NCBI GenBank assembly: GCA_022567555.1
Contig: JADFGT010000003.1
Location: forward strand, 1 to 64,000
Source: Armatimonadota bacterium
Lineage (GTDB): Bacteria; Armatimonadota; Fimbriimonadia; Fimbriimonadales; ATM1
Length of the DNA stretch: 64,000 nt
Reading direction: 5' to 3'
Positions within the stretch are counted from its first letter, which is position 1, and each line of letters begins with the position of its first letter. A program made the translations under genes and the position numbers. The notes beneath the pieces are model-generated. The model made no database searches. It saw nothing but the letters and a program-made list of their open reading frames with translations, and was not told where the DNA came from. This document shows positions 2,644 to 38,754 of this stretch, piece after piece.

Positions 2644-2670
2644 GGCTTCTATTTTACTCTGTGTACGGAC

Positions 2671-2826
2671 GGGTGGCCCGGACAGATTGCGTGAACACGC
2701 CTTCGGCGGCTTCCCTCCGCCATTCTCCGCCTTCCCTCCGGCATTCAGCGGGGGCGCAGAATCGTTCAGCGGAGGTGGCCCGGACAGATTGCGTGAACCC
2801 GCCTTCGGAGGGTTCCCTCCGGGGTA
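2671..2826. repeat. GC-rich dispersed repeat, copies a and b
   Basis: Two tandem partial copies start with GGTGGCCCGGACAGATTGCG (2672 and 2777), then GTGAAC(A/C)CGCCTTCGG, 'TCCCTCCG' units and a GAATCGTTC(A/G)GCGG unit. A further copy lies at 3170-3305. The repeats bracket the small gene at 2856-3131. Confidence 0.75.
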
Positions 2827-2855
2827 GTGTCCTAATTTGAAGAGAAACGTGGCAA

Positions 2856-3131
2856 CTACGGCAGAAACGAGGCGCGGAGAGCGGCTTGTGCGCCGTCTAT
2901 CGGGTGCTTGTGGAGAACGGCGTAGAACCGGCGCCTGTTAGAGTCCGGGACAGGTTCGGACCAAGCGTAGCAGAGCCGGGCTGTTGGGTGTCCTGCGATG
3001 TTAAAGATGCTGATTTCGCCGTCCCAGACAGGTTGGCCGTCTAACGTTTCCGTTACCTGGACGGTCTCTTTGAACTGAGCCCGGCAGTTGTGGAGTCGCT
3101 CGACGGCCTTCTGGAGTTCGCTGTTCGGCAA
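2856..3131 (-). CDS. Small conserved hypothetical protein
   Basis: About 91 residues from a TTG at 3131 (LPNSELQKAVERLHNC...). The frame is open further upstream to 3317, but that part only translates the GC-rich repeat (Pro/Ala/Glu/Arg-rich 'APAERF' units), so I prefer the shorter start. The core reads as one domain: an amphipathic helix, 'ETVQVTETLDGQPVWDGE', 'GHPTARLCYAWSEPV', then 'RRFYAVLHKHPID'. I recognise this as a small family scattered through environmental genomes, function unknown. A decayed copy of its C-terminus is found 51 kb away at 54111-54235. The start is the weak point. Confidence 0.5.
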   Translation of the reverse strand: MPNSELQKAVERLHNCRAQFKETVQVTETLDGQPVWDGEISIFNIAGHPTARLCYAWSEPVPDSNRRRFYAVLHKHPIDGAQAALRASFLP

Positions 3132-3169
3132 CGGCGGATTATGGCATGTGGGGGCGGCTTTCGCCGGAC

Positions 3170-3305
3170 GGGTGGCCCGGACAGATTGCGTGAACCCGCC
3201 TTCGGCGGCCTCCCTCCGCCGTTCTCGGCCTTCCCTGCGCCATTCAGCGGGGGCGCGGAATCGTTCGGCGGGGGCGGAGAATCGTTCGGCGGGTTCCCTC
3301 CGGGG
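3170..3305. repeat. GC-rich dispersed repeat, copy c
   Basis: Same unit as 2671-2826: GGTGGCCCGGACAGATTGCG at 3171, then GTGAACCCGCCTTCGGCGG, TCCCTCCG units and two GAATCGTTCGGCGG units. Read on the minus strand it gives an 'APAERF' periodic peptide, which is probably not translated. Confidence 0.75.
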
Positions 3306-3347
3306 TTCGGGTAGCATCGCGGCAACCTAACAGGGAGCCTTAAACCA

Positions 3348-34734: not shown

Positions 34735-34866
34735 CGACGACGAGACCCAATGGCCGCCTTACTGATTCATCGGCTTTTCGGTAACCGGGAAAGGCGGCCT
34801 GTCAAACAGAAGTTTCAACGTGGCGTGTCCGTCTTTGGGCTTCACCGAAGCCCATCCGCCCCCACC

Positions 34867-35610
34867 TCACCCATAGTTGATTCGGCCTTCCGCCAGCACC
34901 TTGCCGCCCGTTCCGCTCAGACGAAAGCCTATTGGGATGCGTTTCCAATCCTTATAGATACTGAGTCCTGAGGCGTTTACGCCCGTGATCGCCATGTTCA
35001 CAGCCCCGTTCTGATAACGCTTAGCAATCACGATCGCATCGCTCACGAACACGGGCCTTTCCTCGCCCGCGGAGACTCGGATTCTACGGATTCTCTCCCC
35101 CGTACCCGAGATAAACCAATCGGTTCCCGCTTCGTCTCGCCTTATGATGCGGTAGCCGGTCAGCATGTATGCGCCTGTGGGCAGCGCGCGCCGCCGGTCC
35201 TGTGCCTTCTGGTTCTCGCCGTCCCAGTGGAGGCGGAAATACCGGCCATGAAGATCCCGCAGCAGCAGCGAGCCGCGCTCAAAGTTCGCCGTCAAATAGC
35301 CGTCTTCGTCCGAAGCCGCCTTAGGAGGCTTGATTACCGCCTCGGGCAGAGGCAGCGGCTTGCTTTCCAGGTATTTCACGAGGGCCGCACGGGCCCTCTC
35401 CGGCGTGCTCGTTCACGCCGTCGAAGAAATCTGCTCCAGCCACGCCCTATCGGTCGCGAACCTCGTGTCCGGCGGCTGGTGGCAGCCGATGCACTGCTCC
35501 TGAAACATCTTTCCTATTTCCGTGGCCCCCTGCGGATCCTGCCCGCCCGCCAATAGCACAGCACTGGGAACGACAGCCGCACAGACTGCGGCCGAAATGA
35601 GCAACTTCAT
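34867..35610 (-). CDS. c-type cytochrome with in-frame UGA (candidate selenoprotein)
   Basis: Read through, the frame gives 247 residues from the ATG at 35610, which has a GGAGATCAC ribosome site. It has a signal peptide (MKLLISAAVCAAVVPSAVLL), one haem site CIGCH (40-44) and 'DRAWLEQISSTA', then UGA as codon 66 (35413-35415). It continues TSTPERARAALVKYLESKPL, with a strand-rich C-terminal domain ('GYLTANFERGSLLLRDLHGR', 'DWFISGTGERIRRIRV'). Without readthrough it is a 65-residue haem protein plus an unstarted 170-residue frame (GTG at 35379). A stem-loop sits 14 bases after the UGA (35380-35398). Alternatives: nonsense mutation or sequencing error. A second UGA gene lies 2 kb away. Confidence 0.6.
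35380..35398 (-). promoter_or_regulatory. Possible bacterial SECIS hairpin in the cytochrome gene
   Basis: GAGGGCC (35398-35392), loop CGTGC, GGCCCTC (35386-35380): a perfect 7-bp stem. The apical loop begins 21 bases after the UGA and has G in its second position, which fits the published range for bacterial SECIS elements. GC-rich coding DNA makes such hairpins by chance, so this is supporting evidence only. Confidence 0.4.
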
Positions 35611-36781: not shown

Positions 36782-37507
36782 CTAACCTCCCCCAACCGGC
36801 TCGATCTGGCTAATCACTTCGTGGTTTATCTGCCAAACGCTCCGCTCGGTGCTGTGTTCCCCCTTCTTCTTCATTTCCTGTGTTAGTTGCAGAGCATACT
36901 CTTTGGCAGCCGCGTCCACTTCCGCCGCAGCCCGCAACAGGTCGGTTACAAAGGTTCTCCGCAACCAATCCTCGTCGCTCACCATCATCTCGACACACGC
37001 TTTGGCCTCATCATCGAAGGCTTGCGTGTTCCGAACGCGTTCGATGTGGCGCTCCAATTCCTTCTGCATCCTGACGGCTTCAGCAGTGCCTTCAGGCCCC
37101 CACTTCTTGACCAGCGCTTCGTACTCTGAGGCCGGCAGGTTCGCCCTAACCGCGTTTTGGTATCCCCGGACGAAAGCCTCAGCGCTCTTTAGTCGGCTTC
37201 GCTCAGGCATCGCTATCAAGATCTTCTGAAGGCGTGACCGATCCGGCTCGAATGCTGGATCGGCCGGGATAAACGTGAAATACATCTGGCCGGAAGCCAC
37301 ATCGCCAATGACCAGCAATTCGTTGAGGCTGCCCGATTTTGCGTCGCGTGAGCCAACCTCAAAACCGTGTCGGTAAAACGCGTTTCCTGTTGACCTGCCG
37401 GCAAAGTAGAGAACCGCCGCCGCGAAACAAGCGAAGATGGCAATTGCTACAGCCCATCGCCATAGCGGTTTTCGCTTCCCATTGCGCGCATTATCCGCTT
37501 GACTCAC
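36782..37507 (-). CDS. Single-pass membrane protein of unknown function
   Basis: 241 residues from a GTG at 37507. One transmembrane segment (about 17-38, 'WRWAVAIAIFACFAAAVLYF') is followed by a soluble, helix-rich domain with many Glu and Arg ('LEDAV'-free, with 'GFEVGSRDAKSG' near 50 and 'FDDEAKACVEMM' near 165). The start overlaps the end of the SelW-like gene by 17 bases, so translation may be coupled. No named domain; unrelated to SelW by sequence. Confidence 0.65.
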   Translation of the reverse strand: MSQADNARNGKRKPLWRWAVAIAIFACFAAAVLYFAGRSTGNAFYRHGFEVGSRDAKSGSLNELLVIGDVASGQMYFTFIPADPAFEPDRSRLQKILIAMPERSRLKSAEAFVRGYQNAVRANLPASEYEALVKKWGPEGTAEAVRMQKELERHIERVRNTQAFDDEAKACVEMMVSDEDWLRRTFVTDLLRAAAEVDAAAKEYALQLTQEMKKKGEHSTERSVWQINHEVISQIEPVGGG

Positions 37508-37721
37508 GAATCTTTTGAGTGACCTCTTCGTTCTCTGGAATGACCCCGAGGTCGTCGCGGTTCGTATGCACGACGCGGCCGTCCACCATGACCTCGAAAA
37601 TGCCGCCGTGCCCCTTCTTGAACTTGGACTCGGCGCCGAACTCCCTCTTTATCTCAGCCGCCAAACTGGAGGCGTACGGGAAGTAATCTCACTCAGTGCA
37701 GTATTCGATCCGGACTTTCAT
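37491..37721 (-). CDS. SelW/Rdx-family selenoprotein (CxxU)
   Basis: 76 residues from the ATG at 37721, with UGA as codon 11 (37689-37691) and TAA at 37491-37493. The frame reads MKVRIEYCTE-Sec-DYFPYASSLAAEIKREFG, then 'HGGIFEVMVDGRVV' and 'NEEVTQKIRE'. This is the SelW/SelT/SelH (Rdx) thioredoxin-like fold with its CxxU redox motif at the N-terminus and the GxFEVxVDG strand. The family is thiol/selenol redox-active, with glutathione or protein partners. A plain ORF search misses it because UGA reads as a stop. A SECIS-like hairpin follows (37657-37673). It overlaps the next minus-strand gene by 17 bases. Confidence 0.88.
37657..37673 (-). promoter_or_regulatory. Candidate bacterial SECIS hairpin of the SelW-like gene
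   Basis: GCCTCCA, loop GTT, TGGCGGC: seven pairs with one mismatch. The loop begins 22 bases after the UGA and starts with G, matching the placement rules for bacterial SECIS elements read by SelB. Confidence 0.6.
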
Positions 37722-37788: not shown

Positions 37789-38754
37789 TTATCCTGGGCT
37801 TACGGCCGCCTTCGCCGGGATCAGATTCATCTCCCTCATTGCGCCCTTGACCGCCTTCTTCTGCTCGTCCGTCGGCGGAATCATCGGCAGGCGATAGACA
37901 GTTGTCTTGAAGCCCAACAGAGAGACGGCGTACTTCACTGGAATCGGGTTGGTCGTTATGAACAGCGCATTGATGAGCGGCACGAGTTTCTTTGACATCT
38001 GGGCAGCGGCATACGCCCCCCCGCCCTGACCCTCTCCCGCAGAGGGGGGAGGCGATGAGAAAAACGTCTCCATCATCTCCATTATCTGTTTTCCCGCGAC
38101 ATGCCCGGCGACGGAAACGACCCCGATTCCGCCCACGCTCAATACCGGCAGGGTCAGAATGTCGTCGCCGGAATAAACGCGAAAGCCTTCCGGAACCGAC
38201 GCGCACACCTCGGCCACCTGCGCCAGGTTTCCGCTCGCCTCCTTTACCGCGCAAATATTCGGGACATCTGAAGCCAGCCGCACAAGCGTCGGCGTCTGCA
38301 CGTTCACCGCCGTGCGACCCTGAATGTTGTAGATCATTACCGGCAAGTCGGTGGACTCCGCTACCTTCCGGAAGTGCGCGTAAAGCCCGTCCTGATTCGG
38401 CTTGTTGTAATAGGGCGAAACGAGCATGACGCCGTGCGCCCCCATCTCGGTGGCTGCCTGCGTCATGTGAACGCTGTGCTCGGTGTCATAGGTGCCCGCG
38501 CCGAACACGACCGCCGCCTTGTCGCGCACCGCGTTCAGCACCGCGCTCAGCAGCTCGGCCTTTTCTTTGTCGGAAAGCGTCGGCGATTCGCCCGTGGTGC
38601 CGGCGATGACCAACCCGGTGTTCTTCTGCTCGTCAACAAGGAAGTTCGCCAGCCGTTCGGCCTCGTCATAGTTGACCGAGCCGTCCTCGTTCATCGGCGT
38701 TACCATCGCGGTAAGCAGCGGTCCCCACTCTTTTGGTGATTGAAATGCGCCCAT
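37789..38754 (-). CDS. dapA: 4-hydroxy-tetrahydrodipicolinate synthase with an in-frame insert
   Basis: 321 residues. The catalytic Lys is K171 in 'CAVKEASGN', Tyr is Y142 in 'MIYNIQGRTAVN', and the Thr-Thr pair is in 'AGTTGESPTL' (52-60). It condenses pyruvate with aspartate semialdehyde, the first step of the lysine/diaminopimelate branch. Asd, which makes the second substrate, lies 280 bases upstream on the same strand, supporting the role. Residues about 232-247 (FSSPPPSAGEGQGGGA) are foreign: they are the translation of a dispersed repeat (38014-38061) inserted in frame in the helical C-terminal domain. It is longer than usual for that reason. Confidence 0.92.
   Translation of the reverse strand: MGAFQSPKEWGPLLTAMVTPMNEDGSVNYDEAERLANFLVDEQKNTGLVIAGTTGESPTLSDKEKAELLSAVLNAVRDKAAVVFGAGTYDTEHSVHMTQAATEMGAHGVMLVSPYYNKPNQDGLYAHFRKVAESTDLPVMIYNIQGRTAVNVQTPTLVRLASDVPNICAVKEASGNLAQVAEVCASVPEGFRVYSGDDILTLPVLSVGGIGVVSVAGHVAGKQIMEMMETFFSSPPPSAGEGQGGGAYAAAQMSKKLVPLINALFITTNPIPVKYAVSLLGFKTTVYRLPMIPPTDEQKKAVKGAMREMNLIPAKAAVSPG
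38014..38061. repeat. Palindromic repeat inside dapA
   Basis: CCCGCCCTGACCCTCTCCCG and GCAGAGGGGGGAGGCG: the arms CCCTCTCCC and GGGGGGAGG-type runs pair around GCAGA. This 'CCCTGACCCTCTCCCGCAGAGGG' form is a common REP-like element in many genomes. It is a multiple of three long and keeps dapA in frame. Confidence 0.6.

Follow-up and report, generated by a model that had tools for sequence, protein, structure and literature searches.

Does the minus-strand frame at 37721-37491 encode a selenoprotein, with its in-frame UGA read as selenocysteine (Sec), or does the UGA mark a broken gene or no gene at all? The frame lies in a 64,000-nt stretch of DNA from an uncultured Armatimonadota bacterium (Fimbriimonadales), which was analysed at its full length and is referred to below as the window.

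The SelW frame, its protein and its stem-loop

With TGA translated as Sec, the reverse complement of 37491-37721 yields a complete protein of 76 amino acids, MKVRIEYCTEUDYFPYASSLAAEIKREFGAESKFKKGHGGIFEVMVDGRVVHTNRDDLGVIPENEEVTQKIRESSG, which begins at an ATG codon (position 37721) and ends before a TAA stop codon (37493-37491). The UGA is codon 11 (37689-37691, minus strand). The frame is intact on both sides of this codon, and reading with the standard code gives pieces only. A preliminary description of this DNA had proposed a 76-residue Rdx protein with Sec at codon 11, a CxxU motif and a GxFEVxVDG strand, hidden from normal gene callers. Each of these points was confirmed by the translation, in which YCTEU and GIFEVMVDG are present; the strand (minus) was absent from that description. 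The upstream neighbour is dapA (37789-38754, minus strand; TIGR00674, 298.7 bits).

The SelW protein matched PF10262 (Rdx) with 53.1 bits (cut-off: 22.6; E = 3.8e-14) over residues 2-73 of 76, and TIGR02174 (CXXU_selWTH) with 46.1 bits, above the cut-off of 34.2. Residues 8-11 (CTEU) constitute the CxxU motif at the end of strand 1. In Cys homologues of solved structure (3dex and 2fa8), a Cys aligns to the UGA codon, for example, in EYCTQC of 3dex. The AlphaFold model (pLDDT: 95.6) has a thioredoxin-like beta-alpha-beta-beta fold, and the best Foldseek matches of this model (2oka, 2fa8, 3dex and 2npb) were all SelW-related, with TM scores of 0.82-0.87 over nearly the whole length. Against mouse SelW, the TM score was 0.66.

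The open frame and its hairpin might in principle have arisen by chance, with no gene present. A window-wide codon-usage scan for Sec genes gave the SelW frame no better than rank 25 among 712 TGA frames, in agreement with such an origin, and the scan as a whole was not discriminating. The E value of the PF10262 match, the structural match of the model and the conservation across the phylum described below all argue against chance. We regard this explanation, already refuted by homology, as the least probable of those considered, with a negligible chance of being correct. One further feature was counted against the gene reading, namely, that the Shine-Dalgarno-like AAGAGGG is just 3 nt from the ATG.

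Bacterial SECIS elements are hairpins whose loop lies about 16-37 nt downstream of the UGA and starts with G. A stem-loop of this type (GCCUCCA-GUU-UGGCGGC; 37657-37673, minus strand) begins 15 nt after the UGA of the SelW frame. Its loop, GUU, has G as the first base and is 22 nt from the UGA, in line with the features above. A hairpin with this spacing and G had been proposed in the preliminary description; both details held, but one U x C mismatch in the 7-bp stem of the window copy, which was counted against the element, was unmentioned there. Across 28 homologues, 93.4% of the cells in the stem were paired, compared with 21-60% when the partner strand was slid. Covariation reached 0.246 (shuffled mean: 0.142), and both sides had changed in seven cells. 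Because the stem overlies conserved codons for Ala and Leu, protein constraint accounts for some of its constancy. Such constraint does not explain the compensations (C-G to A-U, G-C and U-A).

Selenocysteine machinery and conservation of the UGA codon

The genome of the window is a fragmented MAG of 2.95 Mb in 179 contigs, estimated to be 91.5% complete. The whole-genome search for selA, selB, selC and selD called for by the preliminary description recovered all four: SelA (489 bits; cut-off: 268), SelB (370 bits; cut-off: 242), SelD (354 bits; cut-off: 125) and a tRNA-Sec with anticodon UCA (77.7 bits). SelD has an in-frame UGA of its own in ESAGUASK, at the N-terminal active-site position, and is predicted from its sequence to be itself a selenoprotein.

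A reassigned genetic code, in which UGA would generally encode Trp, Gly or another residue, was considered because two genes within 3 kb, the SelW frame and the haem-protein gene described below, have three in-frame UGAs between them. However, TGA serves as an ordinary stop codon in the window, where it terminates 8 of the 16 checked genes, and the long conserved genes dapA and asd contain no in-frame TGA. Moreover, the in-frame UGAs align with Cys of Cys homologues or sit in redox motifs, and the tRNA with anticodon UCA is a tRNA-Sec. Reassignment is therefore very improbable, though slightly less so than a chance frame.

A single-sequence search of the window genome and the 40 genomes nearest to it found the SelW gene in 10, each time with one UGA. 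A profile search of 291 Armatimonadota genomes gave 41 matches, 40 of them with an in-frame UGA. In every SelW homologue whose sequence was read, this UGA is the U of CxxU, and alignment of the homologues, also suggested earlier, revealed either Sec or Cys at codon 11. SelW loci of Planctomycetota, Holophagae and Deltaproteobacteria share this UGA and the hairpin. For the scan across collections, a broad Rdx alignment gave no conserved stretch, and five short forms were used instead. Among 41 genomes, the Sec machinery was detected in 13 of 13 that carry the Rdx gene, and the gene in none of the 21 without the machinery (Fisher p = 4e-6, a nominal value because the genomes are related).

These data bear on the possibility that a Cys-type Rdx gene was broken by a TGC-to-TGA mutation and is now a pseudogene, or appears so through a sequencing error. 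Such an event would take one base change, the assembly is a MAG, and the window copy has one mismatch in its stem. On the other hand, a UGA at this codon in 40 of the 41 phylum matches and in other phyla, that is, in independent genomes, already refutes this explanation. The stem-loop kept with covariation, the full Sec machinery in the genome and the frame intact on either side of the UGA are likewise at odds with it, and we judge it highly unlikely, if a little less so than reassignment. On the combined sequence and model evidence, the frame at 37721-37491 (minus strand) is almost certainly the gene of a true SelW-like (Rdx, PF10262) selenoprotein.

By analogy with the SelW family, from which both Sec insertion in the cell and a redox role are inferred, SelB would deliver Sec-tRNA(UCA) to the UGA at codon 11, and the stem-loop inside the coding region, from 15 nt downstream, would guide the insertion. 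The product would be a thioredoxin-fold thiol/selenol oxidoreductase, in which the CxxU pair Cys8/Sec11 most likely cycles via a selenenyl-sulfide bond.

A c-type haem protein with two in-frame UGA codons

Read-through frames in the gaps between genes of the window were listed as a source of further candidates, and one gene was the sole convincing addition. Nine other such frames had no match in Pfam. At about 2661-3340 of the window, the read-through translations repeat the peptide VARTDCVNPPS..SLR, which suggests a repeated DNA unit between the genes there.

The convincing candidate (35610-34759, minus strand) corresponds to a second UGA gene nearby that the preliminary description had mentioned, and it proved to have two Sec codons, with UGA-containing homologues in Armatimonadota and Planctomycetota. 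It lies 2 kb downstream of the SelW gene on the same strand and encodes 283 amino acids before a TAA stop codon. A functional connection of the two selenoprotein genes through gene order was considered and rejected, the neighbours not being conserved in relatives (no tblastn match in homologous loci). The N-terminus resembles a signal peptide, and the single CxxCH motif is CIGCH at residues 40-44. The first UGA is codon 66 (35413-35415), and the second is codon 248 (34867-34869), within a YGUGGGG motif.

The protein matched no Pfam family, and a search with five members (E up to 1) gave no relevant NCBIfam match. No match was found in plasmids, and searching PDB with the sequence of the haem domain returned nothing useful. 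Homologues were found in genomes, and 34 full-length members were parsed, 5 from Armatimonadota and 29 from Planctomycetota. The four other Armatimonadota homologues have UGA at both sites. Overall, site 1 is Sec in 28 of the 34 members and Cys in six (codon TGC or TGT), and site 2 is UGA in all 34. A profile of the C-terminal part matched 77 places in 51 of 392 sampled Planctomycetota genomes, with an in-frame UGA in 74 of them. Of 33 genomes that have the family, 30 gave a SelB score above the cut-off, compared with 12 of 20 without it (p = 0.01). The full profile, run on 396 Acidobacteriota genomes, gave only weak haem-domain matches without UGA, plus one protein with a C-terminal FGUGG domain.

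The latter protein (L111) carries this Sec motif as FGUGGTCTYSW but lacks the haem domain. In Planctomycetota, another protein that shares the C-terminal FGUGG domain (L080/L081; MEFG-U-GGACGYS) is encoded immediately upstream of selB. Four other Planctomycetota genomes (G319, G350, G393 and G492) have 4-7 matches each to the [YF]GUGG profile, nearly all with UGA and many in long frames. The proteins with this domain possibly constitute a large selenoprotein superfamily. Additionally, one homologue of the haem protein (L103) has an additional, third UGA in frame (RLR-U-SPDD), at a position occupied by Trp in several relatives, which we read as a sequencing error or degeneration.

Each of the two UGAs is followed by a stem-loop: GAGGGCC-CGUGC-GGCCCUC (35380-35398, minus strand) after the first and GGGCUUC-GGU-GAAGCCC (34837-34853, minus strand) after the second. 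A few near-duplicates and the shifted-hairpin members L106 and L107 were excluded from the alignments; in these two, the protein has an insertion after Sec, and the site-1 hairpin seems to be displaced correspondingly by a few codons. At site 1, 91.1% of the stem cells were paired, compared with 33-61% in slid versions, and covariation was 0.371 against 0.239. At site 2, pairing reached 94.1% (slid: 37-52%) and covariation 0.607 (against 0.220), with 36 cells altered on both sides and two-sided changes in six of the seven pairs. The site-1 hairpin, scored as at least five of seven pairs, was present in 25 of 28 UGA members and in one of six Cys members, indicating that it tracks the UGA and not the protein family (Fisher p = 0.001, a nominal value because the UGA and Cys groups are partly separate lineages).

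In the structure model (pLDDT: 89), a helical haem domain (residues 26-82) is followed by a beta-sandwich part (residues 90-280), which weakly resembles DUF3823 structures and contains Sec248. Sec66 follows the histidine of CxxCH by 22 residues and lies after the second helix of the haem domain, shortly before the third and last. Because the axial Met of small class I cytochromes sits in roughly this place, His/Sec coordination is a reasonable hypothesis; by this analogy, Sec66 might be a natural selenolate ligand of the haem, an assignment that we consider tentative and rather doubtful at present.

Relation to known selenoproteins

SelW-like (SELENOW-like) bacterial selenoproteins have long been known (PMC1794560, PMC2398784 and the table in PMC13188914), and few Cys homologues in Sec-using organisms were reported in 2006. 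The protein described here shares with them the N-terminal CxxU, the Rdx fold, the size, a UGA predicted to be decoded by SelB, with a hairpin just downstream, and the scarcity of Cys homologues in Sec-using organisms. It differs in its host lineage, Armatimonadota (Fimbriimonadales). Its best NCBIfam match was the Campylobacter type, NF041051 (SelTWH_Campy), over nearly the whole length; it is not an equivalog of that family because the score of 70.6 bits is below the curated cut-off of 88. The gene is thus a further SelW-like selenoprotein, of a kind already known. A literature search, whose coverage was incomplete and left most subscription papers outside, found no paper on Armatimonadota selenoproteins.

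Among c-type cytochromes, the multihaem selenoprotein ExtKL (NF040886) is known, including a Geobacter cluster (PMC1914089). The haem protein has a c-type haem and Sec codons in common with ExtKL and with the octahaem tetrathionate reductase family (TIGR04315). However, these two have NCBIfam models and are multihaem proteins with a single Sec, whereas the protein here has one CxxCH and two Sec sites and matches neither. It also had no match among double selenoproteins of NCBIfam such as NF041212, NF045648 and NF047649. A review of May 2026 lists 119 prokaryotic selenoprotein families and subfamilies, in which the only cytochromes named are the multihaem ExtKL and the octahaem family, and a single-haem family with two Sec is absent from that list. 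Titles and abstracts contained no obvious report of natural Sec ligands of haem, a picture that papers beyond this search could change. With high confidence, although less than for the SelW gene, we propose that the protein represents a family not yet listed, whose members are exported c-type proteins with a single haem and two selenocysteines; its two-Sec character has good support.

With the SelW gene, a branch of Armatimonadota joins the lineages that use selenocysteine, and the gene exemplifies those that are truncated or missed by standard callers. At this locus, the haem protein has more novelty than the SelW gene and also matters more. Since no family model exists for it, the family would show up as fragments in annotated genomes. 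It suggests the existence of an exported redox protein with haem and selenium, apparently undescribed as far as the literature was searched, and it raises the question of whether selenocysteine may serve as a natural axial ligand of haem c.
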